In this document: positions 1 through 63,860 of the stretch, one piece after another
Layout: every line of letters begins with the position of its first letter
Numbering within the stretch: position 1 is the stretch's first letter
Assembly: GCA_935421135.1 (NCBI GenBank)
Contig: OW285195.1
Coordinates: 9,206,391-9,270,390 of the forward strand
DNA length: 64,000 bases
Direction of reading: 5' to 3'
Origin: Bugulina stolonifera
Taxonomy: Eukaryota; Bryozoa; Gymnolaemata; Cheilostomatida; Bugulidae
The notes under the pieces: model-generated
What the model was told of the DNA's origin: nothing
The model's database searches: none
The model's input: the letters and a program-made list of their open reading frames with translations, nothing else
Program-made: the position numbers and the translations under genes

Positions 1-3000
1 GTCAGCCATCTATGTATCAGATAACAATCTATGGACAGAAGTTGGTTCGATGAACATGGATACTCAAGATGGTCTGGTAGCCTCACTCCAAGTCAAAATA
101 TTTGCTACTCATTTAGCTCTGGTTGGATCAAGTTCCAATGGTCTATTTATAGATGAGCTTATTGCATTTGGATACACACTGGGTGAGTTGACAATAATTA
201 AATATGTTCTATATTTGTATCCTTTTGACAAAGCTCTTCTGCCCGATAGGACATGTATGAAAACACCCATCCCTGACAAGGGTTTGATCCCAAGGCCCCT
301 GCGGTACCTAATTACCTGGCACACTACCACTACACCGCTCAAATGAAAACTTTAAAAATCCTTGTGAAACCTACTACACATGTAACATGTAACAGCACAT
401 ATGAGAATAATAGCCAAACCTCCAACATCTCAAACACAGACTGTTTCCTCATGTGCAGTTGACTCGATCAGTGCACATCTACTGCCTGCCAGGGAAGCTT
501 CCTTCTGCTGCTAAGCTGGTGTAGTGGTCATATGTTCTGTGCAGGGCGATTAGGCTTAGCAGGGGCCTTGGGATCAAACCCCTGTCAGTGATTGGTGTGA
601 ACTAAGAGACCCCATCTGCTCAAATGACAAATTCAAAAATACTTGCATAGATAAACTAACATATACATACGGTGTATGTTTGTTTTTAATACATTGTAGA
701 TAACTATGCACTGAATAGGACAGCTGTACAGAGTTCTGACTACACAGAAGGTGTTACTATAGCTAGCAATGCTGTTGATGGTGTAATATATGATGGATCT
801 GTTTATGCTCAAACTGAGGCAGTTAGTCATCAATGGTGGAGAGTTGACTTGATGGATGTACATCTGATATATGCTGTTATAATCTACTCTAGTGTTGAGA
901 GTAAGTCTGTATCTGTGTACTACGTAATAAAATTTGGACGTGAGATACAGTAGTATACTGTACATGTAAAACAGGAACTTTTGAATGTAGTTGTATTGCT
1001 ATGAGTATGTGATTTTCTGTGTAAAATTTCAGGTGCTACCACAGCAGATATCCAAATGTTGGGTAGTCAGTCTGTTTCTGTACCAAAACTATCTCTATCA
1101 TCCTCCACATGGCCTATCAGTCTTTTTGAAATGTCTGAGCTGACGTTTTCATATCTTGATATTCTTCTTGAGGAACCAAAGCTAATACGTCATGTCGCTG
1201 TATTGTCTCAACAAAGCAATGGTTTACTCCTCTCTGAAGTACAGGTCATGGGTGATGGTAAGTATTACTGGGTATTTAAACTACATGTATGTTGATATTA
1301 TTTTTTTAAACATATCCCATACTAACTGTAGTTTTGTTGTATCAAAATAAACTCTTATATTGCTCTTTTGGTAGATTATTTGTGCTTATTCAAGACTGGT
1401 GAGGAACATTACGCAAACAAGGCTAAAGGTGGAACTGTGTATAAACCTGCCTATACTGGAGATACATTTGAACTGGATTGTCATAAAACTATGTCAGTTG
1501 TTTGCCCTGACTGTTCAACTAGTGTGATATGTTCTCTAGACCTTGATAAATCAACTGGAGTATTTAATATGTACTGGAATATAACAGATGAACAGAAACT
1601 CTACTGTCAAGGTATTTTTACTACATTAATTGCATGTAAGGTATGTTATTGGCTTTTTACTTTGACTCTCTTCTCCAGCTACATGTACACGTCAAGTTTG
1701 TTATACTCAAAAGAATTCTTGCAATTATTATCAATACATGACATGATTCTCTCTTTACTATGGTGTCTTGCTTTGTAATAGCTAGCATTACAAACATGTT
1801 TCTACAAATACAGGATCCGATGTTTGTTTGACTGGTGACATCGATTGGTCAGCACTTGGAGTGTCAATAGATGTTGAACCAAGTGAAGACAACTCCTTCC
1901 TCTATCCTGGAGAGCACATGCCATACAGATGTGATGTCAGCCATGTTGGACTATCCCATGATGGGAATCTAATGCCATTTGGTTTCATCTTATGCAGGTA
2001 AAATATGGCTTTGAGTGGCTGCATAGAGTTATCTTTTCCTTAGAGACATACATGTAGCTCTGTTTTTTGGCAATTTCATTGATTGATGTAATGTTGGTAG
2101 CCGTTTGTTGGCAGGATTATATGACACTAGCTACTGATTATTGGGTGAAGATAACACATATTATACCAGGTTTGCCATCACTCTGTATCTATCTCCGGCG
2201 CTATACATAGTTATACCATACTTCTCGTGTTTGCCATGTTATAGCTCTGGTGGTGAATGGACACTTGAAGACACAGAAAGTATTGCTACCTGTGTGAACC
2301 GTTCCTCAAATAAGAGAAACCTAGCTTTAAACAAATCTGCTTCCATTAGTTCAATCTCATCTGGAAACCTCTCCAATCTTGCTGATGGTTCATTTGATAA
2401 CCTCTTCTCTACAAATGAGGAAGTTGACCAATGGTGGAAGATGGACTTGCGCAGTATATACAGTGTTACCATGGTTGTTCTCTACACATCCGAAGGTATC
2501 ATTTAGATTTGTTTTCCTTTCATTCATTTTTCTTGCTACGACGTGCAAGGCCTACCTAATAGGTATACTCTGCCTTCATCTCATCCGTTTTAACTGACAT
2601 TGCCTTGATGCTTATTTTCTCTGATGTCAATCTTTTCTCTTTTTAACAGATACCCAGCACAAATTTGGAAAGTTCTATATACTGACCACAAGTGCTATTA
2701 ACCCGGGAACAACACCATTACCTGACATTGGTTCATGGCGTTCTACTTACTGGTTTGAAAGTGTTTCAGAATATCCAGTCATTGTAGCACGGTTTAACAA
2801 TGGTATACCTGCCAGACATGTAGCTATCTTATCTCTCCTTGATGTTGGATTCAGTTTACTGGAAATAGAAGTTTATGGATCTGGTATGTTGCTTAGGAAC
2901 AGACTTACAACATCTACTCAATTGTTATATTGGTTAGATAACAAGTTCACTTCACTATGGTTTAATTTACTTTTACAGATAACCTGGCGCTTTCAAAACC

Positions 3001-6000
3001 AGTTCTTTACAGTGGAATTTCTTCTCAATCAAGATTTCCAAGAACATCAGTTGTTGATGGAATAGTAGGGAATCAGTTATTCTTGGCAACTAATGATAAA
3101 GCACACTCATGGGTTATGGTAGATTTGTTAGAGATGTACAACTTGAGTTCAGTGTTTGTTTTCACTTATGGTAAGTTCATCCACCTGGTCCATCTGCCAA
3201 CAATGGGTTTCTATCGAGACATATACAACAAAAGGATTTTAATCGATCATATACGCAATACTTCATTTCTTAATATGGACATTTCTTTGAAGGTTCTCTG
3301 ACAGAACAGACAGTTCTGCACTTGGCTGGTGGTAGTTCAACTAACTGGGGTGTGGATCCTGTACAGAACTCTGATCTTTGGTCAACTCTTGTTACTCTCA
3401 ATCATTCAGCTGCTAATGAGTTCTCAGCCATGTTTGATGGAACAGCAGCTATACAACTGGTGTCTCTCTACTACATGAATGGACACCCTCTATTCATTGA
3501 GGAAATATTAGTGTTTGGGGCAGCAAGCTCAGGTAGTGCATTTTTCGTATTCTGTGCATATACTTAGTTTAATACAATCAGTTTTAGATGTTGATAATAT
3601 AATACTTGTTTCACGTGTAGATGTTCCGTCTTTGGAGTGCCTTGTGGAGAACATAGCTGTTGACCTACCTGAACTGAATATAGCTAGTAGATATCTACTA
3701 GATGATGTAATATCTGTGGAACTTGGACATGATTTAGCCATCTTTTGTCCTGATGGTGAAAGTCCAAACATAACAGAAGTGGAACAGTCATCAGTTGAGA
3801 GGATCAAATGCAGGTAAATGTGGGGTCCGATAAGATTACTTATTTAAATTGCCCATTGCCCTAATGTGTAGCTTCCCCACATTTTATCCCCAATGCTAGT
3901 GTTTTTTCAAATGCTCATATAGGTTTTTGATTTTGGCCTTTCCTTTAATGGCTCTTTCACAATCTGTCTTACTTGCATTTGTCTCTCTGGTTTTAGCTTT
4001 GACAGTAAATGGGAAAGAGGTGAATCCCAGCTGGAATATGACTGTTTACGTAAGTTTAATTCTTACTTTGTTTTAATGTAGCATGTTTTTCTGTTCATAA
4101 TCTGTGGAAGGATCATATGTGATGTTCTTTAACCCTTTGAGAACCAATTAAACATTGTAATGGTTTTTGGGGGGTTGTGCTGTTGTCCTAAGACGACTCC
4201 CTTGTCCAAAATGAAGAGCCTATGAGTGGTACTAGGCCTTCTCATTACAAGAAAGATCAACCGCTACTAGTAGTCAAATAGCTACTCAAGACGACCCATA
4301 TGGTCCCGAGTCAATGGTTGTTTGCTATACTGAGAAATAGAGTGATCCGACCTAGAAGGCAGTTCGGGTTGCAAGGTTGAAGACCTTGACAACTGGAACG
4401 ACCTATCTACGAAGCGAAAGTCTCTGTATATTAGTATAGATGTGTCTTTATTGAGATCCAAGCATGAACTGAGACAATGAACATAAAAAAAGTGTGCTTT
4501 ATATAGTATAAGAACTTCCGGAGGATATTCCGGTAAAAGCTTGGCATAGTGTCATAAAAAGACGACGAAGTGTCGTCTAGAAATTGCGCAACAATATGGC
4601 AGCTGGAAGCCCGATGGCCGACCCAAAATAGGTCGGGTACAACCAAAGATGCTTAGAATCATCCAAATCATGTACAAAATCAATATCAAGCAATTCTTAG
4701 TGGTCGGTCCTCTTTACATGGGTATAAAAAGGACATGAAGGCTCAGTAATGCACATTCTAGGTATATATGTGACAATCTACTAGATAGACAATTAGTACA
4801 AGCAAGTGTAATGCAATGTAAGTATATATAATTAGTGTCATATAGTCAGGAAGCTACCTTAGAGTTGTACGTGACCATTACAATATCGCAAAACATACCC
4901 GACAGGTCCAATTAATTCTCTTTTCTACAGAAATAGCCTGTGAACCTCCAGCTGATAACTCTACATATAAGTACTATGGTAACTACACAGTAGATAACTT
5001 GATACCTCTGAATGAATCTTTACTACTGAAATGTGTGAATGGAATATCTTATGTGTCTCAGTGTAGTCAAGATGGTAATCTAAGGATTGGTAGATGGATT
5101 CCTCCTCTTAGTTGTGGTAAGTTGCTTATTTGTTCCACATCAATATGTCATTGATTACCTCAAAACAAAGTAGAAGTATGGAATTTACATTATAAAGTAC
5201 TTTCCACTATTTCAGAATATCAAGAGTGTGAGAGAGTAGAACAACTTGATACATGGATGAATGAACTGGAGAACTTGAGAGTAGATAAATATGATGGAGT
5301 TGTCATTCCTTTTAACTCTAGTGTTACATTTGATTGTCTTGGTGACTATTCTGGTGAAAGTACCAGCTATACATGTCAAATGTAAGTATACAGTTAGGAG
5401 TTCCCTGCAAATTTATGTAAATGTCAGTTTCTACTCAATGAAGTGCTATTTTAACTGTGAAGCCTATAGTCTAAAATCGGTTATATCATTTAGGCCAACT
5501 TGCCACTACAAATTCCCTTCTACAACTTTGGTTTCTAATTTATGCATTATTTAACACTTGGCAGTTGGCCAACTTTCGTTCATAAATATGATTATTATGC
5601 TCTTCTGTTTTTTACAGTGACCATTCTGGTAATGCATCTCTGCATCCCAAAACTGAAGGAGTTATATCTAGTTGCAGTTGTAAGTATTTTTTTAAATCAG
5701 CAGTACCCGTAGCACAATAGATAAAGAGATATTGAGTGAACATAGTTAGGAAATGTGTATACACATTGATACATGTATATGCTTATATCTCTGCATTGTG
5801 TATTGTGATAGCCACTGCAATATGTCTGGTCCCTAAGACACCATACCATGTGACCTACAATCCCGCACAGTACAGCATTGACTGCGTAAATGGTGACAAA
5901 TGTCAAGTTGGTGAAACAGTGTCACTTCAGTGTGCAGATGTGGATGGAGAAGTTATGAATGAACATGTTTGTCATACGAGGTCTAACCACACTGCCTGGT

Positions 6001-17225: not shown

Positions 17226-17314
<89 letters not shown>

Positions 17315-56300: not shown

Positions 56301-59300
56301 CAAATTGCATGTTTTGGCCTTATGGCGATATTTATAACAGTAAACTGCAATACTTGTACAGGTCTATGGAAGAAACAATATAATGTAGCTGTCTTGTATA
56401 CAGTGTGGTCAGATGAAATATTGGACCTAACCAAAAAGGCAGCCATTTCTCGCCAGCAATAAACAAGCCCACAAAAGTTTAAAAACTTGTTGAAGTTGTC
56501 TTACAGCAATATTAGTAAAGTCTGTGAATTCTTAGTTTTCTATGTAAGCAGATTTAATTCAAAATATTTCTCTATAAGATATGAAACAAGCAACTTTTTA
56601 ACAAACGTGCGTTAATAGTGTTTGGTGGTTCAGTATGGGCAAGAGGACACAACTCTGCCTATAGTGGCACTAATAGAACAAAGCTCTACTGAACGCACCT
56701 AAACCGCACACCATAGCCCCTTTGATTATCGTTGTAGGTATTCCATCTCTCAAGGTGTTATCTTTTCTCTCTACACTTGTATCTGATACTGAACTAACAC
56801 CAGATGTTGATATGTTATGGACACAACATATACACCATAATCAACCAATCAGTGATGAGATAAAGGACTTTAACTTTAACATTGGTGAAGTGAGGTGTTA
56901 TAAACTGGTGTTGGTTTGTAATAGTTCTGAAGGATTTGCTCTCAAGGAAGTCCAGACATACTATCTAGGTACTATCTTGACTGCAATTTTCACATCTAAT
57001 AAGCATGTTGGTTTATTTGGGGGTTTGACCATCTATATATTTCATGATATTAGTTTTATCCAAGGATTTTCAATTTGTGCATAGAGTGGTCATAGACTCG
57101 ATTTCACATCCTTGAACACACCCGTCCCAGACTAGGGTTGGAACCCGAGGCCTCTACAGCACCTAATTGCCTAGCACTGTGCAAAGGACACATTACCACT
57201 ACACCACTCCTTTTTAAAGGTTGTCAGGGATGGATCTTTTCATGGATATGAAATCGAGTTTCTGACTGCTCTATGAACTCATTTAATATCCTTACATAAC
57301 ATGACATCATTAATGCTTCCCAAAGTGGCACTTGTCTTACTGTTTCACTAGTAAAAATCACTAAATTTGTTACAACCATTTGTTACAAAACCTATTTATC
57401 TTCTCTGGCCTATTGTGTTATTCTGTGTGTTTATTCTTATGTTTCCTGCTATTTACATGTATGTATACTATGTGTATTATCTGTTGTCGTATTCTGCTTC
57501 ATCTTCTAGTATGGGATTTAACTTTGATGGTAGTTGAATTTTTATGGAGTAAGATTCACTGATAATAAAGTTCATGTTTTGCTCAACTCTGTATAGATAT
57601 CCAAACTGTTATAGTTGCAACGTGTCTATTTCAGTCAATCTGCTCCACTCCAACTCTACAGTCAACAGTAGCAGTTCTATCAATAACTCCAATGTACTGA
57701 ATACTGTTGATGGAATGGTAATGTCTACTGATGGGATTCATTACTTCATGTCTTCAACTGAAGCTGACCAATGGTTTGCTGTGTATCTGGGTCAAGGATA
57801 CTTTCTCATTGATATCCTATTGGTCAATAGTGCTGGTAGTAAGTATATCATATCTATTCTCCACATCTATTAATAGAGTTATATATTTAGTCTGTAATAC
57901 AGTTCTATTACCTGTTTAATGATGTCATCCATTCTCTCTGATAGATAATGACACCTTCAACTCTACCCTTTACTATAAACTGGATACAGACCAGTCAGCC
58001 ATCTATGTATCAGATAACAATCTATGGACAGAAGTTGGTTCTATGAACATGGATACTCAAGATGGTCTGGTAGCCTCACTCCAAGTCAAAATATTTGCTA
58101 CTCATTTAGCTCTGGTTGGATCAAGTTCAAATGGTCTATTTATAGATGAGTTTATTGCATTTGGTTACACACTGGGTGAGTTAAAAATTAACTATGTTCT
58201 ATATTTGTAGCTACATTCACAGTGTATATTCACAGTATATTGATCCTACACTGCTTCTCTTAGCGGATACCTGGTGTCATTAATCACTTCCTTGCTTGTG
58301 TATATTATATAGCCTTATATTTGTTTATGCATACATTGTATATACATTTATGTTTGTTTCTAATTACCTTGTAGATAACTTTGTTGCTTTTTGCTTTCTT
58401 GTGCATTATACGGGTACATGTGTATGTGAATAATGTCTAAACCATATAGTACTTGGCATATAACTGATTTTTCTTGTAGATAACTATGCACTGAATAGGA
58501 CAGCTGTACAGAGTTCTGACTACACAGAAGGTGTTACTATAGCTAGCAATGCTGTTGATGGTGTAATATATGGTGGATCAATTTATGCTCAAACTGAGAC
58601 AGTTAGCCATCAATGGTGGAGAGTTGACTTGACGGATGTACATCTGATATACGCTGTCATAATCTGCTCTAGTCTTGATAGTAAGTCAGAGTGATCAAAT
58701 TAAATGTGTATAATGTGTGCTGTAAAGTCAAACATTGGATGTGAGGTGAAGCACATGATTGTAGTATATATAATATCAGTTGCTGGGTGTTATCACAATG
58801 TACGTGATGCACATGTAACCATCTCTGTAAAATTTCAGGTCCTACCACCGCAGACATCCAAGTGTTTGGTAGTCAGGATGTGTCTGTACCAAAACCATCT
58901 CTATTCTCCTCCACATGGCCTATCAGTCTTTTGGAAATGTCTGAGACGACGTTTTCATATCTTGATATTCTTCTGGAGGAACCAAAGCTAATACGTCACG
59001 TGGCTGTATTGTCTCAACAAAGCAATGGTTTACTCCTCTCTGAAGTACAGGTCATGGGTAACGGTAAGTACACTGGGTATTTGAACTACAACCATGTTAC
59101 TTTCAATATAATGTCGGTGTACTATACGTATCTAATAATAATTTATGCACAATAAAAATATAATTTTTCTCCGTTCATCAGACTACACGTGTGTGTTCAA
59201 AACTGGTGAGGAGCATTATGGAAACATGGCTAAAGACGGAACTGTGTATAAACCTGCATATGCTGGAGATACATTTGAACTGAATTGTCATAAATCTATG

Positions 59301-62300
59301 TCAGTTGTCTGCCCTGATTGTTCAACTAGTGTGAAGTGTTCTCTAGACCTTGATAAATCAACTGGAGTATTTAATATGCACTGGAATATAACAGATGAAC
59401 AGAAAGTCTACTGTCAAGGTAACAACTTCTACCTTATAACAGAGTTCAATATCACGTTTTTTGCCATGTATGTGATTATTTTCATTATCCAATCATGGTG
59501 CATGTTACAGAAGCTGTTACACTTCTGTCACTGATGCAGAAGATTATCATTCTACTGATTTGGTAAACTCTCTTGTTATATTTGTTATTGCAAATGTATA
59601 CATGTCGTTACACATACAGGATCTGATGTATGTCTGACCAATGAGATCAGCTGGTCAGCCCTTGGAGTTCCAGAAGGCGTAGAACCAAGTGAAGACAACA
59701 CCTTTCTTTACCCTGGAGAGCACATGCCATATAGATGTGATGTCGGCCATGTTGGATTATCACATGCAGGAAGTTTAATGCCATTTGGTCGTATTTCATG
59801 CAGGTAAAGTATTGTGACTATTTATTGTGCTGTTTACTTTATGCAACATACCCTGTTTACCATAGCTCTATATTTCTCATGAATACCATTTAAGTAGTGT
59901 CAGTACAAGCATTTCTTGACATGTTACAGCTCTGGTGGTGAATGGACGTTGGAAGACACGGAAAGCCTTGCTACATGTGTGAACAGTTCCTCAAATGAGA
60001 AAAACCTAGCATTGAACAAATCTGCTTCCATTAGTTCCATTTCAGCTGGAAATCTCTCCTATCTTGTTGATGGTTCATTTGATAACCTCCTCTCTACGAA
60101 TGAGGAAGTTAACCAATGGTGGCAGATGGACTTTCACACTATATCCAGTGTTACTGTGGTTGTTCTCTACTCATCTGAAGGTATGTGTAATAACTTTGTA
60201 TTTCCTCCATTTCTATTTCTGGTCAAGTTTAGCAACCTGTTTGATCAACATCTTCCATCCGCTAAAGCTTTGGCTTACTCATCTGTTGCAAAGATGATTA
60301 GTTTCATCCCATTATTCTTTATTTTCTTAACAGACTCTCTGCCCAGATTTGGGGAATTTTACATACTGAACACGATAGTTACTGAACCCTGGACTGCACC
60401 GTCACCTGGGACTGGGTCATGGAGACTATTTTACTGGTTTGAAGATCTTTCAGAATATCCAGTCATTACAGCACGGCTTAACGGTGGAATACCTGCCAGA
60501 CATGTAGCTATCTTATCCCTCCATGATGTCGGATTCAGTTTACTGGAAATAGAAGTTTATGGATCTGGTATGTTACTAGAGAACAGGTGTATAATATTCA
60601 CTGAACATATCAATTATTACCTTGATTAGATAACAACTTCCCTTCACCATGGTTTAATATATATTCACAGATAACCTGGCTCTCTCAAAACCAGTTCTTT
60701 ACAGTGGAATTTCCTCTCAATCAAGATTTCCCAGAACATCAGTTGTTGATGGACAAGTGGGGAATCAGTTATTCTTGGCAACTGATGGTAAAGCCAGCTC
60801 ATGGGTTATGGTAGATTTGTTAGAGGTGTACAACTTGAGTTCAGTGTTTGTTTTCACTTATGGTAAGTTTCTATAATTTCCCATAAGTTCACATCTAATT
60901 ACAAAGATTTGCGTACTAGACTCCTTTATCCAGACTTGATTGGATGTCCTTCCTAACACATCAAATGAATATGAACAGAGATTTCTCACTTGGAAATCCA
61001 AGGCTCTAACCAGTAGGCAATGACCTATAAACACAAATGATGTATCGCTAAATTGAGAATTGGCAATATTCCACATCTCAATATACATGTACATTTTCTT
61101 TCTCTGAAGGTTCTCTGACTGAGGATACACTTCTGCACTTGGCTGGAGATAATTCAACTAATTGGGGTGTGGATCCTGTACAGAACTTTGATCTCTGGTC
61201 AACTCATGTTACTCTCAATCAATCAGCTACTAATGAGTTCTCTGCTGTGTTTGATGGAACAGCAACTATACAGCTGATGTCTCTCCATGCAGAGAGTGAA
61301 GGTCCTCTATTCATTGAAGAGTTATTGGTCTTTGGGGCATCAAGCTCAGGTAGCGAATTCTCTTTTACTTTCTTTAACTTTATATCTTGTTGGTTGAAAA
61401 TTGTTGTGTAATGCAATAATTAAGGAATTAAGGTTCTGTTTCAGACGTTTGAAGTGTCTTTCTGGTTTAAGATCTTCATAATAACATTAATTATTTTAGA
61501 TGTTCCCCCTTTGGAGTGCCTTGTGAAGAACATAGCCGTTGACCTCCCTGAACTGAATATAGCTAGTAGATATCTACTTGATGTTGTAATATCTGTGGAA
61601 CTTGGACATGATTTAGCCATCTCTTGTCCTGACGGTGAAAGTCCAAACATAACAGACGTCAATCAGCCATCAGTTGAGAAGATCAAGTGCGGGTAAATAT
61701 CTGATTACGTTGCTGGTTCTTCTGTGTCTGTGATCAACTAATAATACTGCTTTCTAGTACAACGCTAAGATTTAACTGTCCGTCTTTCTTGTTCTAGTTC
61801 AAGCCATCAATGGAAAAGGGGTGAACCACAGCTGGAGTATGACTGTTTACGTGAGTTTGGCTCTCTTCTATAAATTAATTCTGCTAAATTGGAATGTTAA
61901 TCTGTAATGATGTACATATAAAGGTGTATATTATGCATATGCAATATACATATATTTGTGCCGTCACTTCACGAAATTGAAAGGCTTCATATGTGGCCTT
62001 TTGTTATCATTTTTTATATCTTCCTTCCCTACAGAAATAGCCTGTGAGCCTCCAGCTAATAACTCTATCTACGAGTACTCTGGTAACCTCACAGTAGATA
62101 ACTTGATACCTCTGAATGAATCTTTACTACTGAAATGTGTGAATGGAATATCTTATGAGTCTCAGTGTAGTCAAGACGGTAATTTAAAGATTGGTAGATG
62201 GATTCCTCCTCTCTCCTGTGGTACGTTGTTTATTTATTCCACATCAATATGTCATTATTTACCTGAAAATTAAGTACAATTATAGAATTTACATTACGAA

Positions 62301-63860
62301 GAACTTTCCACTATTTCAGAATATCAAGAGTGTGAGAGAGTAGATCAACTTGATACATGGATGGATGAACTGGAGAACTTGAGAGTAGATAAAGATGATG
62401 GAGTTGTCATTCCTTTCAACTCTAGTGTTACATTTGATTGTCTGGGTGACTATTCTGGTGAGAGTACCAGTTATACATGTCAAATGTAAGTATACTGTGA
62501 AGTCTACTACACATTTATGTAGATGTCAGTTTCTACGCTAAATTTTTATTATAACTGTGAGCCCTATAGCCCAAAATGAGTCGGATCATTGGTGTCCACT
62601 CTATGAAGATTTATAATAACTGTACTTGTAAAACTTGACACCTTGCTCATAATGTAAATCATTTGATCTACTGCATTTCCCTTTGATGTCTCTGATGCTG
62701 TATTCACAATCTAGGCATAAAATATTTAACAGTTGGCCAACTTTCACCATTCTATTTCTTTACAGGGACCAATCTGGTAGTGCATCTCTACATTCAAAAA
62801 CTGAAGGAGTTGTATCTAGTTGCAGTTGTAAGTAATTTGTTTGAAATCAGCAATATCTGTAGCACCATAGATAATGAAAAATTTAGTGAATATACATGGA
62901 GCTAAGAAATATTTTGAAGTTAGTTGCTGTTAGTATAATGAAAAACCCCTGCATTGGTATTATTGTAGCCACTACTATATGCTCAGCTCCTGTGATGCCG
63001 TACCATGTAACCTATAGTCTTTCACAGTACAGCACCAGCTGTGTAAATGGTGTCAGCTGCGATGTCGGTGATACAGTTACACTTCAGTGTGCGGGTATTG
63101 ATGGGGAAGTTATGAATGACCATATCTGTAAGGTTACTAGCTCTAATCACGCTGACTGGTTCCCTCCAACTACCTGTGGTAAGTTAAAGTAAATGTTAGG
63201 CTTTTTGGTTTACTAATATTTTAAACACGGGTGCACTAGCTATTATATATCATAATATTATGTTCACCCACTAGGCATATACATGTAACGTTGTAGATAC
63301 CCACTGTGGTCTCCCTCCTACACTCTATGGGCTAGAATGTACCAGAAACATTCCAGAGAATCTAAACTCTGGTCAACAGAGGTTCTCTAATGGTACCAGA
63401 CTGAGCTGTTCATGTTTAGATGGATTCCAAAGGATCTCTGATGATGTTTATATTACTTGTGATGGTAGTTCCGGAGAGTGGGAGTTGTCCCCTCCCAAAC
63501 CATGTTTACGTGAGTACTTTTAGTTGAATCATTTTAACGACTTCAAAGCTTTCTTGTCCAGACATGAAGAACCCTGATTACACTGTAGAAAGGGATATGA
63601 ATCACTGGGTTACTGAATGCATTTAGTAATATATTATCTATTATATTCTTAACTTATCTAGCATATTTTTATAGTTGAAACAGACGAAATACTAGCTCCT
63701 AATAACTCTCAACGCTTGCATGCTGAACTTAATGATCATCCAGTATCTACTATAGTCTGTGATGAAGGGCACTACCTTGATCTGTCATATCCTTATCAAC
63801 AACTTGTTCAGGATGTCACACCTACTGGTTCTAATCCAGTTACGGTCAGTGCATGTTTCA
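1..63860 (+). CDS. Giant tandem-repeat discoidin/CCP (sushi) protein gene, internal part, open at both ends
   Basis: This is 161 spliced exons in seven copies of a 24-exon unit, about 28.4 kb coding. Exons were placed from acceptor (AG) and donor (mostly GTAAGT) signals, reading-frame continuity and agreement between copies; every exon length fits its phases. Introns between modules are phase 1. Three CCPs (F/G, K/L, N/O) are cut by a phase 2 intron after the third Cys, and the linker exons U/V also meet at phase 2. Exon X of each unit joins exon A of the next in phase 1, with no start-like signal peptide, stop or recurring poly(A) signal between units, so I read one gene. The product should be extracellular: Cys-paired CCPs, many Asn-X-Ser/Thr sites and discoidin-like lectin folds point to adhesion or recognition. 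An alternative is several adjacent genes whose first and last exons I cannot see. No name is assigned. Confidence 0.72.
271..345 (-). mobile_element. tRNA-derived SINE-like fragment in the B/C intron of unit 1
   Basis: On the minus strand this reads GGTGTAGTGGTAGTG (A-box-like) followed about 30 bases later by GGGATCAAACCC (B-box-like, related to GGTTCGAATCC). It is similar, in inverted orientation, to the piece at 511-590. Boundaries are approximate. Confidence 0.45.
511..590 (+). mobile_element. tRNA-derived SINE-like fragment, inverted relative to 271-345
   Basis: Contains GCTGGTGTAGTGGTCATATG (A-box-like) and GGGATCAAACCCC (B-box-like) about 45 bases apart, plus the shared core GGGGCCTTGGGATC. 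With 271-345 it makes an inverted repeat that fills most of this 517-bp intron. Confidence 0.5.
4118..4800. mobile_element. Unit-1-specific insertion in the L/M intron (candidate non-autonomous element)
   Basis: The L/M intron is 881 bp here against 114-464 bp in other units, and the extra sequence has no counterpart in the window. It holds short perfect hairpins: AGACGAC-GAAGT-GTCGTCT (4560-4578) and CCGACC...GGTCGG (4618-4636). It is more G+C-rich than the surrounding introns. I see no open frame or clear terminal repeat; the boundaries are estimated. Confidence 0.4.
8065..8342 (+). mobile_element. 256-bp foldback insertion with 11-bp target-site duplication (V/W intron, unit 1)
   Basis: TATCTCTATAG occurs perfectly at 8065-8075 and again at 8332-8342. 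Removing one copy plus the 256 bp between restores an intron that aligns with unit 3 (CTTTATATTCCTGTAAAG followed by the same ACCAATTAATTC). The insert starts with an 18-bp perfect palindrome overlapping the junction (AGAGGTGGATCCACCTCT, 8074-8091) and contains a long imperfect stem bounded by GCTAGGTGC (8187-8195) and GCACCTAGC (8264-8272). No coding capacity. It is a non-autonomous element of unknown class. Confidence 0.7.
8581..8590 (+). promoter_or_regulatory. GC 5' splice site after exon W of unit 1
   Basis: The boundary reads ACAG|GCATGC. The corresponding site in units 3 and 4 is ACAG|GTATGC, so one T-to-C change converted a GT donor into a GC donor. GC-AG introns are a known minor class. 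Without splicing, translation stops about 11 codons on. Confidence 0.6.
9439..9979 (+). CDS. Module A+B (archetype copy, unit 2): discoidin-like domain 1, N-glycan-rich
   Basis: Two exons encode one domain of 145 residues. Exon A ends EADQWFAVYLGQGYFV..ILLVN, matching the middle strand block of F5/8 type C domains (QWW.VDL...Y.V..V.I). Exon B ends THLALVGSSSNGLFIDEFIV.G, matching the terminal strand pair of the fucolectin branch (RYV......LCEVEVYG). The intron falls between the two halves in phase 1. There are no cysteines. Five Asn-X-Ser/Thr sequons sit close together across the A N-terminus (NST, NSS, NNS) and the B N-terminus (NDT, NST). Assignment rests on the shared two-half pattern with C+D and G+H; on sequence alone it is divergent. 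A ligand is not predictable. Confidence 0.65.
9439..19437 (+). CDS. Repeat unit 2 (complete, exons A-X)
   Basis: Exons: A 9439-9642, B 9749-9979, C 10369-10569, D 10714-10938, E 11046-11282, F 11874-12057, G 12183-12433, H 12597-12830, I 12934-13125, J 13577-13816, K 14194-14386, L 14568-14620, M 15085-15270, N 15370-15535, O 15726-15787, P 15994-16200, Q 16365-16577, R 16686-16871, S 17032-17166, T 17370-17480, U 17706-17745, V 17928-17953, W 18097-18291, X 19204-19437; 4,206 nt, 1,402 codons. Exon H is the most divergent copy (SLGRFGEICTLMTVATKPW). Long introns: 9980-10368 and 13817-14193 (nothing recognised), 11283-11873 (SINE-like piece plus short tandem repeats), 13126-13576 (palindrome), 14621-15084 (extra acceptors), 18292-19203 (about 0.5 kb longer than in unit 3, with inverted repeats), 19438-19752 (shared with unit 3). 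Confidence 0.85.
10369..10938 (+). CDS. Module C+D (unit 2): discoidin-like domain 2
   Basis: Exon C begins NYALNGTAVQSS and carries a clear QWWRVDLMDVHLVYAVIIYS block, the F5/8C/fucolectin signature around the WW-V/M-D-L strand. Exon D (75 residues) closes with RHIAVLAQQSNGLLFSEVQVMG, the terminal strand pair. It has no cysteines. The first half also holds AVDG, the usual 'A.DG' turn of the family. Together with G+H this is the most convincing discoidin copy in the unit. Residues equivalent to a fucose-binding His/Arg triad could not be identified by eye, so sugar binding is not claimed. Confidence 0.75.
11046..11282 (+). CDS. Module E (unit 2): CCP/sushi domain 1 with an extra Cys pair
   Basis: One symmetric 1-1 exon of 79 codons. 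Six cysteines: the four CCP positions (YTC, LDC, VKC, FYC), the conserved Trp between Cys 3 and 4 (MYWNITDEQ), and an additional pair CPxC between the second and third canonical positions. The added pair is present in all seven copies (CPDC in six, CPEC here). It is preceded by a Gly-Glu-His-Tyr turn and a PAYAGDTF strand, typical of the hypervariable loop and second strand of CCPs. It sits directly between discoidin domain 2 and CCP 2. Confidence 0.75.
11366..11430 (-). mobile_element. Degraded SINE-like fragment in the E/F intron of unit 2
   Basis: The minus strand holds the core GGGCCCTTGGGTTTAAACCC, related to the pieces in unit 1 and to those at 37660 and 57123, with GCTAGGCGATTAGGTGCC upstream. 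The B-box region is a 12-bp palindrome (11381-11392). The A-box side is poor. Short tandem repeats follow in the same intron: (ACGAGT)3 near 11565-11583 and ACTGC repeats near 11733-11750. Confidence 0.4.
11874..12231 (+). CDS. Module F + start of G (unit 2): CCP/sushi domain 2
   Basis: A classic CCP: Cys 1 in SDVCLTGDI, Cys 2 in MPYKCDASH after a PGE turn, Cys 3 in ISC, then SGGEW with the conserved Trp and Cys 4 in SHC. The phase 2 intron lies directly after Cys 3, a split known from many vertebrate CCP genes. The domain ends inside exon G, which then continues into discoidin domain 3, so exon G is a fused exon that lacks an intron at the module boundary in every copy. Confidence 0.8.
12232..12830 (+). 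CDS. Module rest of G + H (unit 2): discoidin-like domain 3 with variable segment
   Basis: The first half starts NLAFNKSASISSISSGNLSY (NLALNKSAS in most copies), followed by LVDGSFDN and QWWKMDF..IYSV..VVLY, an easily recognised F5/8C/fucolectin N-terminal half. Exon H ends RHVAIFSLHNAGFGLLEIEVYG, the matching terminal strands. The first half of H differs strongly between units (for example SLGRFGEICTLMTVATKPW here, SQDQFGKFYILTTIVTEPW in unit 5) while flanking sequence is nearly fixed. This is the best-supported lectin-like domain in the repeat. Confidence 0.8.
12934..13816 (+). CDS. Module I+J (unit 2): discoidin-like domain 4
   Basis: Exon I starts DNLALSKPVLFSGVSSQSRF, then VVDGIVGN and SSWVMVDLLEMYNLSSVFVF, a good match to the N-terminal half pattern although the WW is reduced to SW. 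Exon J (80 codons) contains LAGSNSTNWGVDP and closes MQLVSFYAVNEGPLFIEELL.FG. The short loop before the last strand varies by unit: YAVNEGP (2, 5), YTRNGN (3, 4, 6), YYMNGHP (1), HAESEGP (7). No cysteines. The acceptor of J is unusual in being CTGAAG or CTAAAG rather than CAG or TAG in all copies. Confidence 0.7.
14194..14620 (+). CDS. Module K+L (unit 2): CCP/sushi domain 3 split by a phase 2 intron
   Basis: Exon K carries Cys 1 (ECVLEDIAV), Cys 2 (LAISCPDG) and Cys 3 (IKC) at its very end. The 53-bp exon L supplies the rest: a Trp (GKWKRGEP) and Cys 4 (EYDC). The phase 2 split after Cys 3 matches that of F/G. Exon L comes in two kinds: FDGKW, FDSKW or FGGKW in units 1-4 and 6, and LRHQW or SSHQW in units 5 and 7. 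Confidence 0.78.
14737..14750. repeat. Short (TG)n run in the L/M intron of unit 2
   Basis: About seven TG units, unit-specific. The rest of this 464-bp intron holds extra acceptor-like sites near its 3' end. Confidence 0.7.
15036..15084 (+). promoter_or_regulatory. Tandem 3' splice sites before exon M of unit 2, one in frame
   Basis: TTCCTACAG ends at 14990 and again at 15045, and the expected acceptor TCCCTACAG ends at 15084. Use of 15045 would add 39 nt in frame: 13 mostly hydrophobic residues with no stop. Use of 14990 runs into a stop within a few codons. Other units lack the upstream copies. Confidence 0.5.
15085..15270 (+). CDS. Module M (unit 2): CCP/sushi domain 4
   Basis: A single 62-codon 1-1 exon with the compact CCP layout: IACEPP (Cys 1), LLLKC (Cys 2), SQCSQDG (Cys 3), RIGRW (Trp), PPLSC (Cys 4). 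It is the most conserved exon of the unit; units 2-6 differ at only a few codons, and unit 1 has a small Tyr-rich variant. The adjoining M/N intron is also closely similar in all seven copies. In this unit an extra upstream acceptor is in frame with the exon. Confidence 0.85.
15370..15787 (+). CDS. Module N+O (unit 2): CCP/sushi domain 5, lacking the usual Trp
   Basis: Exon N: Cys 1 (QECERV), an acidic stretch ELENLRVDKDDGVVIPF, Cys 2 (TFDC), Cys 3 (SYTC). Exon O (62 bp): Cys 4 near its end. A phase 2 intron separates them, as in F/G and K/L. No Trp is present between Cys 3 and Cys 4 in any copy, so this is a degenerate CCP. Exon O has two types: DHSGNASLHPKTEG with final SSCS (units 1, 3, 4, 6; unit 7 a DQSGSASLHSKTEG relative), and DQYGxxxLxxxQD with final xxCT (units 2, 5). 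Confidence 0.68.
15994..16200 (+). CDS. Module P (unit 2): CCP/sushi domain 6 with an extra Cys pair
   Basis: A 69-codon 1-1 exon. Canonical Cys positions: TTCPAPVTP, VSLQC, EHVC and RPSC, with Trp in HTDWFP. An added pair lies in GCVNGDRC between Cys 1 and Cys 2 and is present in every copy with small changes. A sequon (NHT) precedes the Trp in units 1-3. Lengths are 68 codons in units 4 and 6 and 70 in unit 7, the only CCP here with length change at this loop. Confidence 0.78.
16365..16577 (+). CDS. Module Q (unit 2): CCP/sushi domain 7
   Basis: A strong CCP: HCGLPPTIYG (Cys 1), TRLSCSC (Cys 2 and an extra Cys), NVYVTC (Cys 3), SSGEWE (Trp), NPCL (Cys 4). A sixth Cys in YGVECTRN could pair with the extra Cys of CSC. 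HCGLPP and the GEW...PC end are textbook for complement-control modules. It is bounded by phase 1 introns. The copy in unit 5 has one extra His and a changed final segment. Confidence 0.85.
16686..16871 (+). CDS. Module R (unit 2): Cys-poor CCP-like module
   Basis: A 62-codon 1-1 exon beginning VETDEVPAPNNSQLLYAELD, then TTVCDEGHYLDVSY and a final GICL. Only two cysteines are present, in positions that would fit CCP Cys 2 (VCDEGHYL resembles the Y.C..GY.L strand) and Cys 4; Cys 1, Cys 3 and the Trp are absent in all seven copies. It could be a CCP that lost one disulfide or a separate small module. It lies between two good CCPs, so CCP ancestry is the more likely reading. Confidence 0.55.
17032..17480 (+). 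CDS. Module S+T (unit 2): CCP/sushi domain 9, phase 1 split between Cys 2 and Cys 3
   Basis: Exon S: GGCPADTL (Cys 1), sequon NLT, FYGSGEEVVLDC (Cys 2). Exon T: ERIFKC (Cys 3), LLQWNSVPSD (Trp), IQC (Cys 4). Unlike the other split CCPs, the intron is phase 1 and lies before Cys 3, so it arose separately. Exon T starts VAER in units 2-4 and 6, VSER in unit 1, and VLER in unit 5. The S/T intron of this unit holds the (TCAA)n repeat. Confidence 0.78.
17226..17323 (+). repeat. (TCAA)n tetranucleotide microsatellite
   Basis: About 24 nearly perfect TCAA units in the S/T intron of unit 2, with one T-for-A change near the 3' end. None of the other S/T introns has an expanded version; units 1, 4 and 6 show only a single CAATCAATA at the same place, the probable seed. 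Confidence 0.95.
17706..17953 (+). CDS. Module U+V (unit 2): short basic Gly/Pro linker from two mini-exons (40 and 26 bp)
   Basis: The two exons give about 22 residues: GQQRSKPEYAGRK then AFGPTGYTG. Every copy keeps the K/R-P-[EQ]-[YF]-[AV]-G-R pattern and the FGP core. It has no Cys and too few residues for a domain, so I read it as a linker separating the CCP run from discoidin domain 5. The exons are real because the frame only continues through both (phase 1 to 2, then 2 to 1) and they recur in six units. Unit 1 carries a run of three basic residues (RKR) here. Confidence 0.72.
18097..19437 (+). CDS. Module W+X (unit 2): discoidin-like domain 5 with a Cys pair
   Basis: Exon W: DQIKLAVVPVSDVVVSSSSE, then VDYRLDRVWQSE and NQWIMLDYGMFISILAVRLY, which follows the N-terminal half pattern. 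Exon X ends CYKLALICNSPEGFALEEVQ with the terminal strand pair pattern; in X two cysteines six residues apart (RCYKLAL.C) are unique among the five discoidin-like domains and could form a disulfide. The intron is at the same place and phase as in the other four. This domain abuts A+B of the next unit, giving three discoidin-like domains in a row across each unit junction. Confidence 0.68.
18420..18900. other. Extra segment with inverted repeats in the W/X intron of unit 2
   Basis: Compared with unit 3, this intron carries about 0.5 kb more. It includes facing segments around TTGGTAGCAGCTAGG (about 18543-18557) and GCTTGCTACC...CCCTAGTC (about 18622-18653), an imperfect inverted repeat that suggests a decayed foldback element. 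The 3' part, from about 18890, is shared with unit 3. Confidence 0.35.
19753..28300 (+). CDS. Repeat unit 3 (complete, exons A-X)
   Basis: Exons: A 19753-19956, B 20063-20293, C 20581-20781, D 20909-21133, E 21354-21590, F 21908-22091, G 22219-22469, H 22611-22844, I 22948-23139, J 23450-23689, K 23803-23995, L 24172-24224, M 24381-24566, N 24666-24831, O 25068-25129, P 25262-25468, Q 25582-25794, R 25942-26127, S 26317-26451, T 26568-26678, U 27118-27157, V 27300-27325, W 27475-27669, X 28067-28300; 4,206 nt. It is the shortest full period and has few unit-specific insertions. Introns of 310-440 bp at 21591-21907, 23140-23449, 26679-27117, 27670-28066 and 28301-28625 hold only sequence shared with other units; the first and third closely match units 4 and 6. 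Exon J has the YTRNGN loop also seen in units 4 and 6. Confidence 0.85.
28626..37514 (+). CDS. Repeat unit 4 (complete, exons A-X)
   Basis: Exons: A 28626-28829, B 28936-29166, C 29454-29654, D 29782-30006, E 30251-30487, F 30805-30988, G 31116-31366, H 31507-31740, I 31854-32045, J 32484-32723, K 32837-33029, L 33207-33259, M 33422-33607, N 33707-33872, O 34110-34171, P 34305-34508, Q 34614-34826, R 34974-35159, S 35344-35478, T 35595-35705, U 36132-36171, V 36320-36345, W 36515-36709, X 37281-37514; 4,203 nt. Exon P is one codon short (SSNTDW for SNHTDW), and exon V reads TFGPMRFTG rather than TFGPTGYTG; both variants recur only in unit 6. Long introns: 30488-30804, 32046-32483 and 35706-36131 (shared with other units), 36710-37280 (foldback), 37515-38215 (SINE-like piece). 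Confidence 0.85.
32151..32168. repeat. Perfect palindrome in the I/J intron (unit 4); 14-bp core repeated in units 2, 5, 6
   Basis: ATCCTCAAATTTGAGGAT is fully self-complementary. The core CCTCAAATTTGAGG is also at 13233-13246, 41431-41444 and 51390-51403. The flanking intron is homologous in these units, so the shared core is inherited rather than independent. Function unknown. Confidence 0.7.
36784..36830 (+). repeat. Foldback in the W/X intron of unit 4
   Basis: GAGGTG-C-CTGATGTT pairs with AACATCAG-CATCTC across a 16-base AT-rich loop. It is orthologous to the foldback at 56008-56054 in unit 6. The rest of this 571-bp intron is shared with unit 6 and shows nothing else recognisable. Confidence 0.6.
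37660..37752 (-). mobile_element. tRNA-derived SINE-like fragment in the X/A intron between units 4 and 5
   Basis: The minus strand shows GAAGTGGTAATGTG, then GGCCTCGGGTTCCAACCC, which is a good B-box (GGTTCNANNCC). It is the same insertion as 57123-57211, carried along by the larger duplication. A short (TTGTTAAGG)-type tandem repeat follows at about 37762-37790. Confidence 0.5.
38216..46981 (+). CDS. Repeat unit 5 (complete, exons A-X)
   Basis: Exons: A 38216-38419, B 38526-38756, C 38960-39160, D 39319-39543, E 39662-39898, F 40115-40298, G 40426-40676, H 40795-41028, I 41132-41323, J 41763-42002, K 42086-42278, L 42401-42453, M 42572-42757, N 42856-43021, O 43206-43267, P 43455-43661, Q 43827-44042, R 44238-44423, S 44702-44836, T 45245-45355, U 45579-45618, V 45815-45840, W 45980-46174, X 46748-46981; 4,209 nt. 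Exon Q has an extra His codon (THHCGLPP) and a divergent C-terminus (DLYPPYPCI). Exon L reads SLRHQWKRGE, close to unit 7. Long introns: 41324-41762 (palindrome; matches units 4 and 6), 44837-45244 (unit-specific extra of about 0.3 kb), 46175-46747 (nothing recognised). Confidence 0.85.
44488..44526. repeat. (TA)n microsatellite in the R/S intron of unit 5
   Basis: Two AT dinucleotide runs interrupted by ACATGG. Directly 3' lies AGCAGACTCTCGTTATCTAG, which looks like the end of a MITE, but no partner end was found. The other R/S introns lack this stretch. Confidence 0.8.
44850..45180. other. Unit-5-specific extra sequence in the S/T intron
   Basis: The intron is 408 bp here against about 110-200 bp elsewhere. 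The extra segment has no long frame, no clear terminal repeats and no similarity that I can see to other parts of the window. Its edges are approximate. Confidence 0.4.
47280..56968 (+). CDS. Repeat unit 6 (complete, exons A-X)
   Basis: Exons: A 47280-47483, B 48112-48342, C 48694-48894, D 49022-49246, E 49497-49733, F 50051-50234, G 50362-50612, H 50754-50987, I 51091-51282, J 51718-51957, K 52071-52263, L 52440-52492, M 52655-52840, N 52939-53104, O 53340-53401, P 53535-53738, Q 53844-54056, R 54204-54389, S 54575-54709, T 54826-54936, U 55364-55403, V 55552-55577, W 55747-55941, X 56738-56968; 4,200 nt. Exon P has the unit-4 one-codon deletion, exon V the unit-4 MRFTG variant, and exon X lacks one codon (DVDMLW for DVDDxLW). 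Long introns: 47484-48111 (insertion), 48343-48693 (tRNA-like SINE), 49734-50050, 51283-51717 and 54937-55363 (shared with unit 4), 55942-56737 (foldback), 56969-57634 (SINE-like piece). Confidence 0.85.
47531..48042 (+). mobile_element. Insertion in the A/B intron of unit 6
   Basis: The A/B intron is about 100 bp in the other copies and 628 bp here. The break is inside GAGTTATATATTTAGTC as seen intact in unit 7. The extra segment starts TA-CAGTGGAACTTGCTTAATTC, the style of a Tc1/mariner-pogo MITE end. It is flanked by an imperfect 10-bp direct repeat (47521-47530 and 48043-48052). No matching inverted end was found, so the class is uncertain. A small tandem repeat of ACTAGTAACTACTAATA type lies at about 47929-47966. 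Confidence 0.45.
48362..48630 (+). mobile_element. Second tRNA-like SINE in the B/C intron of unit 6
   Basis: At 48392-48452 the sequence is tRNA-like: GGCTATGTTAGTCAGCAGC, then ATCTATCTGCAAGG and GGATTTGAGTCC (B-box-like). A non-tRNA body follows (AGGAGCCATGGTGGCCCC) and an AT-rich (ATT/GTT)n tail ends near 48630. Units 3 (about 20312-20520) and 4 (about 29185-29393) carry the same element with about 66 bp of the tRNA-like part deleted. Confidence 0.5.
56008..56054 (+). repeat. Foldback in the W/X intron of unit 6
   Basis: GGAGGTG-T-CTGGTGTT pairs perfectly with AACACCAG-CACCTCC across a 16-base loop, with one bulged T. The surrounding 796-bp intron also contains about 0.2 kb near 56240-56470 that I could not match to unit 4. 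Confidence 0.65.
57123..57211 (-). mobile_element. tRNA-derived SINE-like fragment in the X/A intron between units 6 and 7
   Basis: Minus strand: GTGGTGTAGTGGTAATGTG (A-box-like), GCTAGGCAATTAGGTGC, and GGCCTCGGGTTCCAACCC (B-box-like), in tRNA order. It is the best-preserved copy of this family in the window and orthologous to 37660-37752. Confidence 0.55.
57635..63860 (+). CDS. Repeat unit 7 (exons A-R; S-X lie beyond the window)
   Basis: Exons: A 57635-57838, B 57945-58175, C 58480-58680, D 58839-59063, E 59182-59418, F 59620-59803, G 59930-60180, H 60334-60567, I 60671-60862, J 61110-61349, K 61500-61692, L 61798-61850, M 62035-62220, N 62320-62485, O 62766-62827, P 62969-63178, Q 63297-63509, R 63675-63860. 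The 5' part (A-L) resembles unit 5, including introns. Odd points: the G/H intron is stop-free and a multiple of three; exon P has one extra codon (KVTSSNHADW); exon L reads GSSHQWKRGE; exon J has the divergent loop HAESEGP. The intron at 58176-58479 holds nothing recognised. The last 140 bp (63861-64000) is the start of the R/S intron, and exon S falls outside the window. Confidence 0.83.

Follow-up and report, generated by a model that had tools for sequence, protein, structure and literature searches.

Giant extracellular proteins such as MUC16 and Dumpy reach ~20,000 residues, and in CR1, whose CCP arrays derive from a repeated multi-module block, the long homologous repeat comprises seven CCPs. 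F-type lectin domains and CCP modules occur together in the sea urchin protein SpCRL and in Drosophila furrowed/CG9095, and SpCRL in addition carries an S/T/P domain (as described in PMC5712786). Here we examined a 64,000-nt stretch of chromosome 9 of the bryozoan Bugulina stolonifera (contig OW285195.1, C9, positions 9206391–9270390, + strand; hereafter the window) together with 80 kb on each side (224 kb in all). The window lies within an array of 12 head-to-tail units that, like SpCRL and furrowed, pairs F-type lectin-like with CCP modules, that like CR1 repeats a multi-module block, and that is followed by a Thr-rich stalk comparable to the S/T/P domain of SpCRL. We consider it likely that the locus is one giant gene for a secreted, probably glycosylphosphatidylinositol (GPI)-anchored surface glycoprotein; the proposed mechanism is graded separately below.

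Coordinates are given as window positions, with negative numbers lying upstream of window position 1. Profiles for each exon class located modules on the + strand between about −33.8 and 89.7 kb and resolved 12 units between −34,802 and 90,021, the first, second, and last of which are divergent. Units 3–10 have 24 exons each (A–X) and 1,398–1,403 codons. The standard exon lengths are A 201, B 225, C 237, D 184, E 251, F 234, G 192, H 240, I 193, J 53, K 186, L 166, M 62, N 207, O 213, P 186, Q 135, R 105–111, S 40, T 26, U 195, V 234, W 204, and X 231 nt; exons N, O, and V differ by 3 nt in some units. With D for discoidin-like and S for presumed CCP modules, the order within a unit is D1 (exons AB), S1 (C), S2 (DE), D2 (EF), D3 (GH), S3 (IJ), S4 (K), S5 (LM), S6 (N), S7 (O), S8 (P), S9 (QR), linker (ST), D4 (UV), and D5 (WX).

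All units are on the + strand. Upstream of and reaching into the window are unit 1 (−34802 to −21271; divergent, 26 exons with one extra D module), the mosaic unit 2 (−20922 to −10216; 24 exons), and unit 3 (−9656 to 182), whose exon X (−48 to 182) ends inside the window. Units 4 (700–9979), 5 (10369–20293), and 6 (20581–29166) each have 24 exons and 1,400 codons; units 7 (29454–38756), 8 (38960–48342), 9 (48694–58175), and 10 (58480–67030) likewise have 24 exons, with 1,399, 1,403, 1,398, and 1,403 codons, respectively, exons A–P of unit 10 (58480–63860) lying in the window. The array closes with unit 11 (67382–82483; 24 exons, 1,429 codons) and unit 12 (82836–90021; 16 exons, 956 codons, three D and seven S modules). 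Several peculiarities were seen in unit 11: exon W (76849–77130) measures 282 instead of 204 nt and contains a short repeated NNSNSTVNSSSSI stretch, exon U has a partial duplicate at 76028–76084, and the W/X intron extends over 5.1 kb (77200–82200) with an unrelated Pro-rich open frame (78737–80890, 81068–81289), probably an inserted element. By eye, a repeat-like stretch in the J/K intron of unit 4 (4100–4880) resembles one 3′ of the gene (L021:1220–1950).

An earlier note, made from the window, had described a 24-exon unit repeated head to tail with constant order and phases. Indeed, with parameters learned from this locus and without homology in its first run, an ab initio exon finder recovered most exons and phases of the window units, and self-similarity of the array is far above chance (for example, 7,816 bp at 95%). 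The exceptions in the window were, in several units, S and T (absent or shortened), in unit 4, exons J and U, in unit 5, exon R, and in unit 7, exon C; a few small exons called in addition were spurious. A (TCAA)24 microsatellite directly 5′ of exon R of unit 5 (17226–17322), which is open in frame, misled the finder. The counts of the note needed adjustment. Its seven copies in the window correspond to six complete units (starting at 700, 10369, 20581, 29454, 38960, and 48694), exons A–P of a seventh, and the end of a preceding exon X; complete window units span 1,398–1,403 rather than 1,400–1,403 codons, and the 160 whole exons amount to 9,411 codons rather than more than 9,480 residues. The module string was correct up to rotation (D-S-S-D-D-S7-linker-D-D). 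Of the ~33 discoidin-like and ~60 CCP modules proposed, the plan gives 33 D and 62 S in the window, with CCP identity supported for only seven of the nine S classes.

In the flanks, the array is joined in phase to one beginning and one end. Exon 1 (−35327 to −35272, + strand) provides the ATG and a signal peptide, MRLSVLHGCIILGFALII, followed by a good donor, and the 44-nt exon 2 (−35031 to −34988, +) links it in phase to exon A of unit 1. Beyond unit 12 follow a mucin exon (90490–103308, +; 4,273 codons, start uncertain), a 60-nt exon (103516–103575, +; acceptor 3.0, donor 2.5), and the last exon (103992–104131, +; acceptor 6.0), which encodes a hydrophobic GPI-like tail ending in LNSSLVLIGLSILLHLSIKA and the stop. 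The curated model comprises 287 exons, 62,652 nt, and 20,883 residues (2.285 MDa) with a single terminal stop and all phases joining, and spans ~139,000 bases from −35,327 to 104,131 on the + strand. Among its 286 introns, 239 are in phase 1, 47 in phase 2, and zero in phase 0; 285 are GT-AG, and the sole non-GT intron is the GC-AG intron at 8584–8747, after exon U of unit 4. When exons of at least 60 nt other than the mucin exon were read in the other frames, a stop was present in one of these in 249/249 cases and in the second in 226/249. Repeated exon lengths, stops in the other frames, selection, and the end controls support the model independently of the finder.

Whether the units are parts of one gene was judged from the introns between exon X of one unit and exon A of the next, and from the two ends. 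Throughout the array, all 11 X-to-A junctions, of which seven lead into window units, join phase 1 to phase 1, which extends the in-frame joining reported before. The X/A introns measure 203–559 bp (3.9 kb in total), so the room for separate gene ends is small. Strict signal-peptide-like first exons occur at three independent places (four rows) in the 224 kb, one of them 525 bp 5′ of unit 1, and none lies in any X/A intron, where the note had placed them for the case of separate genes. Relaxed candidates appeared once in the 3.9 kb of X/A introns and 17 times in 73 kb of 274 other introns, which is the same rate. GPI-like last exons number three on the + and one on the − strand of the 224 kb, and one sits 0.7 kb 3′ of the mucin exon; the criteria for these end controls were fixed after the candidates were already known. 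At sequence level, a putative N-terminal signal peptide and a putative C-terminal hydrophobic tail are both present, judged by criteria likewise set after seeing the candidates, and the predicted tail makes a GPI anchor probable. Because both ends are single, the X/A introns are short and free of strict signal peptides, and the junctions are in phase, we strongly favour the reading that the array is the middle of one gene, which would give a single transcript; the upstream signal-peptide exon and downstream terminal exon that the note had suggested looking for were both located.

The D modules are related to F-type lectins. A profile of 16 D modules matched the F-type lectin FBP32 best (3.8e-20), then hPAF and fucolectins, with the eel lectin at 1.9e-7 and weak matches to neuropilin and factor V. 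In Pfam searches at E ≤1, the same 16 sequences gave F5_F8_type_C_2 in 13 and F5_F8_type_C in 11, and all 59 D modules in the model match our D profile. F-type lectins are described as binding fucose through the motif HX24RXDX4[RK] (PMC5712786). A much looser pattern (H, 23–27 residues, R, any residue, D/E) has three matches in the pre-mucin part of a 20,811-residue version of the model. The D modules thus appear to be relatives of the F-type/F5-8C family for which fucose binding is not expected from the motif, and the term lectin used earlier holds for the domain signature and not for the fucose motif.

For seven S classes, a profile of 21 sequences (S2–S7 and S9) revealed four invariant cysteines and matched CR1 best among PDB entries (1.2e-54), then CR2 and factor H. 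Pfam Sushi was found in 8/21 single S sequences at E ≤1, and the whole unit stays below the Sushi cut-off; S2–S7 and S9 are therefore best described as divergent CCPs. Our own CCP profile matched 81 of the 106 S modules, that is, 70/70 S2–S7 and S9 modules of units 2–11 and 11 in units 1 and 12. Profile search consequently upheld the CCP assignment for seven of the nine S modules in a unit but not for S1 and S8, for which neither profile nor profile–profile comparison supports it; S8, which contains two cysteines, is unmatched by the D profile too. Exons C and P, which encode S1 and S8 (e.g. 1375–1611 and 6510–6695), hold conserved Cys-bearing modules with no family match to the CCP profile or, for S8, to the D profile. 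Structure predictions for the single-exon modules O and P reached predicted local distance difference test (pLDDT) values of 41 and 40 and were not used. A furin-processed polyprotein, suggested by RKRS in the linker of unit 4, was ruled out, as the protein has no R.[KR]R site.

The mucin exon spans 12.8 kb and encodes 45% T, 10% S, and 7% P. Its 29-residue Thr-rich repeat has an 87-bp period, with 98 copies within one sequence piece (L020) and 72% identity at lag 87; the exon thus encodes a long Thr/Ser/Pro-rich tandem repeat domain as expected of a mucin. The open frame 3′ of unit 12 continues to 103,313 and was modelled as one exon, which the first ab initio run had divided. Its acceptor as used scores 0.6; the in-frame acceptors at 90,496 (3.4) and 90,682 (4.7) would remove 2 or 64 residues.

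Core units 3–11 share 82–95% protein identity with one another, unit 2 shares 66–67% with the core, unit 12 48–51%, and unit 1 38–39% (before its extra exon was added). Over the 45 pairs of units 2–11, the median nonsynonymous divergence (dN) was 0.083 and the median synonymous divergence (dS) 0.243, with a ratio of 0.34 (range 0.28–0.38), and all 24 exon classes of units 3–11 were below 0.6. The nearest neighbour of a unit shifts exon by exon, with the exception of units 7 and 9, which are mutually nearest in 16 and 17 of 24 exons and are 95% identical in protein and 94% in introns. This pair points to a recent duplication of a block, superimposed on mosaic exchange.

To compare the divergent units with the core, we determined dS to the best core exon and the identity of 60-bp flanks to the best of nine core units, a choice that biases flank identity upward; random intron pairs of 60 bp had a mean identity of 0.54 (95% at 0.62). 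Among the 24 exons of unit 2, dS to the core was 0.02–0.14 for A, K, N, V, W, and X and 0.21–0.26 for C, O, and P, then 0.38 for S, 0.44 for U, and 0.67–1.21 for B, D, E, F, H, I, J, L, M, and T, reaching 2.04 for R and saturation for G and Q. Core-like exons were restricted to K (0.10) and N (0.22) among the 15 tested in unit 1, and to A (0.05), C (0.07), and N (0.35) among the 13 tested in unit 12. The flanks of K and N in unit 2 were at random level on both sides (0.57–0.58), and those of A (0.55, 0.65), V (0.65, 0.57), and C (0.58, 0.65) of unit 2 and of C of unit 12 (0.67, 0.58) were near or slightly above it. Divergent exons can have similar flanks, as seen for B of unit 2 (0.67, 0.67). 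Clearly related flanks were found for W and X (0.72–0.93), O (0.68, 0.77), and P (0.80 upstream) of unit 2, for K and N of unit 1 downstream (0.85, 0.75), and for A of unit 12 upstream (0.98), which indicates tracts extending into the intron at these places.

An alignment of exon K from six units illustrates the sharp borders: identity of unit 2 begins at CAG|exon and ends at GTAAG, with unrelated introns beyond, and for exon K of unit 1 the downstream intron follows the core. Protein-level selection is insufficient as an explanation because silent sites match too. Exon N varies from one core unit to another (dS 0.40) and hence was drawn from the core pool rather than frozen. Concerted evolution in the divergent end units is thus largely confined to exons. 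On the simplest account, gene conversion continues between exons as long as their homology suffices, and exons that fall below a threshold escape it singly; nucleotide-level constraint on exon K and RNA-templated conversion are possible. The loss or gain of an intron, seen within exon O in units 1 and 12 and in unit 1 also between T and U, is compatible with either gene conversion or RNA templating. These homogenised exons, almost the same at silent sites and in several cases flanked by unrelated-looking introns, make a clean natural system in which to study how the borders of gene conversion are determined.

Several points weigh against the reading of one lectin-like/CCP surface protein gene. 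The CCP profile, which was built without S1 and S8, matches 0/20 of these modules in units 2–11, and hhalign comparison of S1 and S8 with it gave probabilities of 0.8 and 1.9. In the 20,811-residue model, the part before the mucin has no match to the fucose motif, even when the acidic position may be either D or E. When the whole genome was scanned with PF00754 (23 matches) and PF00084 (at least 150), none of the matches listed lay in the array; the scans miss it because its domains are split between exons or divergent. Splice sites are weak at the acceptors −27868 (−0.7) and 90490 (0.6) and at the GC donor 8583 (−0.6), and if the last splice is not made, the mucin frame runs into a stop at 103,314–103,316, giving a secreted product. 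As the finder was trained on the locus and internal stops were forbidden, stop-free exons alone prove nothing, and several terminal exons were picked by hand. For the later model, S, T, both end regions, class-profile matches, and the mucin frame were boosted, the former by hand, and 77200–82100 was excluded from coding. Exons were removed or re-cut by hand at −35342, −27868, −25873, −23088, −22401, −12272, 8389, 8671, 17226, 30224, 74310, 76028, and 103992, and added at −34212, −23454, −23114, −22387, −12230, 17376, 30251, 89911, and −29431. Finally, no relative outside the locus was found beyond three fish proteins, within searches limited by candidate length. These three were found with the first 786 aa of unit 5 (candidates of ~432–1,375 aa), and a 2,653-aa query scored on residues 1–1400 found none at E 0.001 among candidates of ~1,460–4,640 aa, longer ones being out of reach. 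We rate the one-gene surface glycoprotein as likely, and no higher, because the mucin acceptor is weak and S1 and S8 are unconfirmed.

The predicted product would begin with a signal peptide and continue through 12 units, with 59 D and 106 S modules (CCP identity being supported for 81 of the latter), to a ~4,270-residue mucin stalk followed by a GPI-type tail. The presumably O-glycosylated stalk would keep ~16,500 residues of repeated weak-binding modules off the membrane, and many near-identical D and CCP modules could bind glycan- or protein-coated surfaces (microbes, neighbouring cells, substrate) by avidity. With rule-of-thumb dimensions of 3–4 nm per module and ~0.25 nm per mucin residue, the molecule would be more than 1 micrometre long. 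Such a long multivalent sensor or adhesin has, in our judgement from the predicted modules, about an even chance of being the actual function. The array probably grew by in-frame duplication of a phase-1-bounded block within an ancestral one-unit gene, its units being kept alike in part by exchange mostly limited to exons, as the flanking introns drifted apart. Isoforms skipping a unit would remain in frame. We know of no described molecular basis of colony recognition in bryozoans. A bolder proposal, to which we give only a slim chance, is that this ~2.3-MDa GPI-tethered lectin-like/CCP polymer is a self/non-self or microbe recognition surface and a candidate basis of bryozoan colony recognition, with unit number changing by in-frame unequal exchange and module exons homogenised with exon-sharp borders, possibly templated by spliced RNA.

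Instead of a recognition molecule, the gene might encode a structural matrix, cuticle, or larval-attachment protein, comparable to a Dumpy-like cable or a holdfast glue. We regard this as a serious though somewhat less probable alternative. Giant size, a mucin domain, and repeated modules would suit it, as would a sessile animal with an attaching larva, and F5/8C and CCP modules generally occur in matrix proteins too. However, the modules are nearest to soluble or surface recognition proteins (CR1, factor H, F-type lectins), and the tail is GPI-like.

A giant single gene could also yield a purely secreted protein, if the mucin frame is read to its stop at 103,314–103,316, or produce both forms by alternative splicing. 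The frame is open up to that point, the donor after the mucin sequence is moderate (4.2), and the following 60-nt exon has modest sites (3.0 and 2.5). This outcome is unlikely, since the last exon has an acceptor of 6.0 only 0.7 kb beyond the mucin exon and a hydrophobic tail of a kind that is rare (three and one per strand in 224 kb).

Related genes often stand in tandem in animals, and other Sushi clusters exist in this genome, so we considered a cluster of ~12 separate lectin/CCP genes in which every unit would have a promoter and an end to itself. It is very improbable given that strict signal-peptide-like exons precede unit 1 and occur at two other places but in no X/A intron, that these introns are at most 559 bp long with every junction in phase 1, and that the mucin exon and GPI-like end are present only once.

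Repeat arrays can also be enlarged by assembly: for MUC16, 63 repeats from short reads compare with 19 in a long-read model (PMC10829539). The tzBugStol2.1 assembly of B. stolonifera is reported as 234,982,697 bp in 30 scaffolds, with a chromosome 9 of 16.36 Mb, from PacBio HiFi reads at 52x and a quality value (QV) of 55.5 (PMC10213821); the genome analysed here comprised 234,951,659 bp in 27 contigs, C9 being 16,362,498 bp long. The 224 kb contain zero N, the longest near-identical stretch (units 7 versus 9) differs by 5% over 7.8 kb, and intron length and sequence vary between units, so we think an artefact highly improbable. That the array is a decayed relic without function, as the GC-AG intron, the partial exon U duplicate (76028–76084), and the unrelated open frame in one intron might hint, can practically be dismissed in view of a dN/dS of 0.34, exon classes of units 3–11 all below 0.6, and 20,883 codons in phase.

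Upstream of the gene, an open frame on the minus strand (−46238 to −45759) appears acyl-CoA dehydrogenase-like by eye and would be an upstream neighbour gene, and a 1,337-codon open frame (−73058 to −69048) resembles a retroelement polyprotein, again by eye. Dense clusters of Sushi-domain genes occur on C10 (9.06–9.25 Mb), and a Sushi set on C1 (32.167–32.179 and 32.203–32.214 Mb) is repeated at an offset of 35,180 bp. An F5/8C cluster on C5 was rejected as a copy of the gene, being weakly related (best 20.7 bits). As to a close second locus, the 85 matches of unit 5 listed are all in the array, with 33/234 candidates scored and units 1 and 12 unlisted, so that a divergent copy would escape. 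COX1-like genes with in-frame TGA lie on C26 (34375–36051) and C12 (7199–8926), besides the mitochondrial contig C27, and may be nuclear copies or mitochondrial DNA of another organism. The COX1 of C27, translated with table 5, is 90% identical to that of Bugula neritina.

The earlier note knew of no described protein with this repeat. Its plan was not met in our searches, and the combination of modules, size, mucin exon, and GPI end was not met among the literature matches listed or in the protein searches, within their limits of candidate length, whereas the joining of F-type, CCP, and S/T/P domains is already known (as described in PMC5712786). According to a figure legend of that source, members of the SpCRL/furrowed group have 1–5 F-type domains together with FIMAC, C-type lectin, or transmembrane parts. 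The bryozoan protein would differ from them in its 59 D and 81 supported CCP modules in 12 units, its mucin stalk and GPI-like tail, and the missing fucose motif. CR1, the best PDB match of our CCP profile, is unlike it in having neither D modules nor a mucin stalk and in its size of ~2,000 residues (PDB chain, 1,931). MUC16 and Dumpy share with it the size class and Thr/Ser-rich domains; MUC16 repeats, however, carry SEA domains (PMC10829539) and those of Dumpy EGF-like regions, rather than this CCP/F-type unit. The gene is a candidate, open to testing, for a role in bryozoan surface recognition or adhesion. If expressed as modelled, its product would rank, by commonly quoted sizes, among the largest predicted animal proteins alongside titin, Dumpy, and MUC16.

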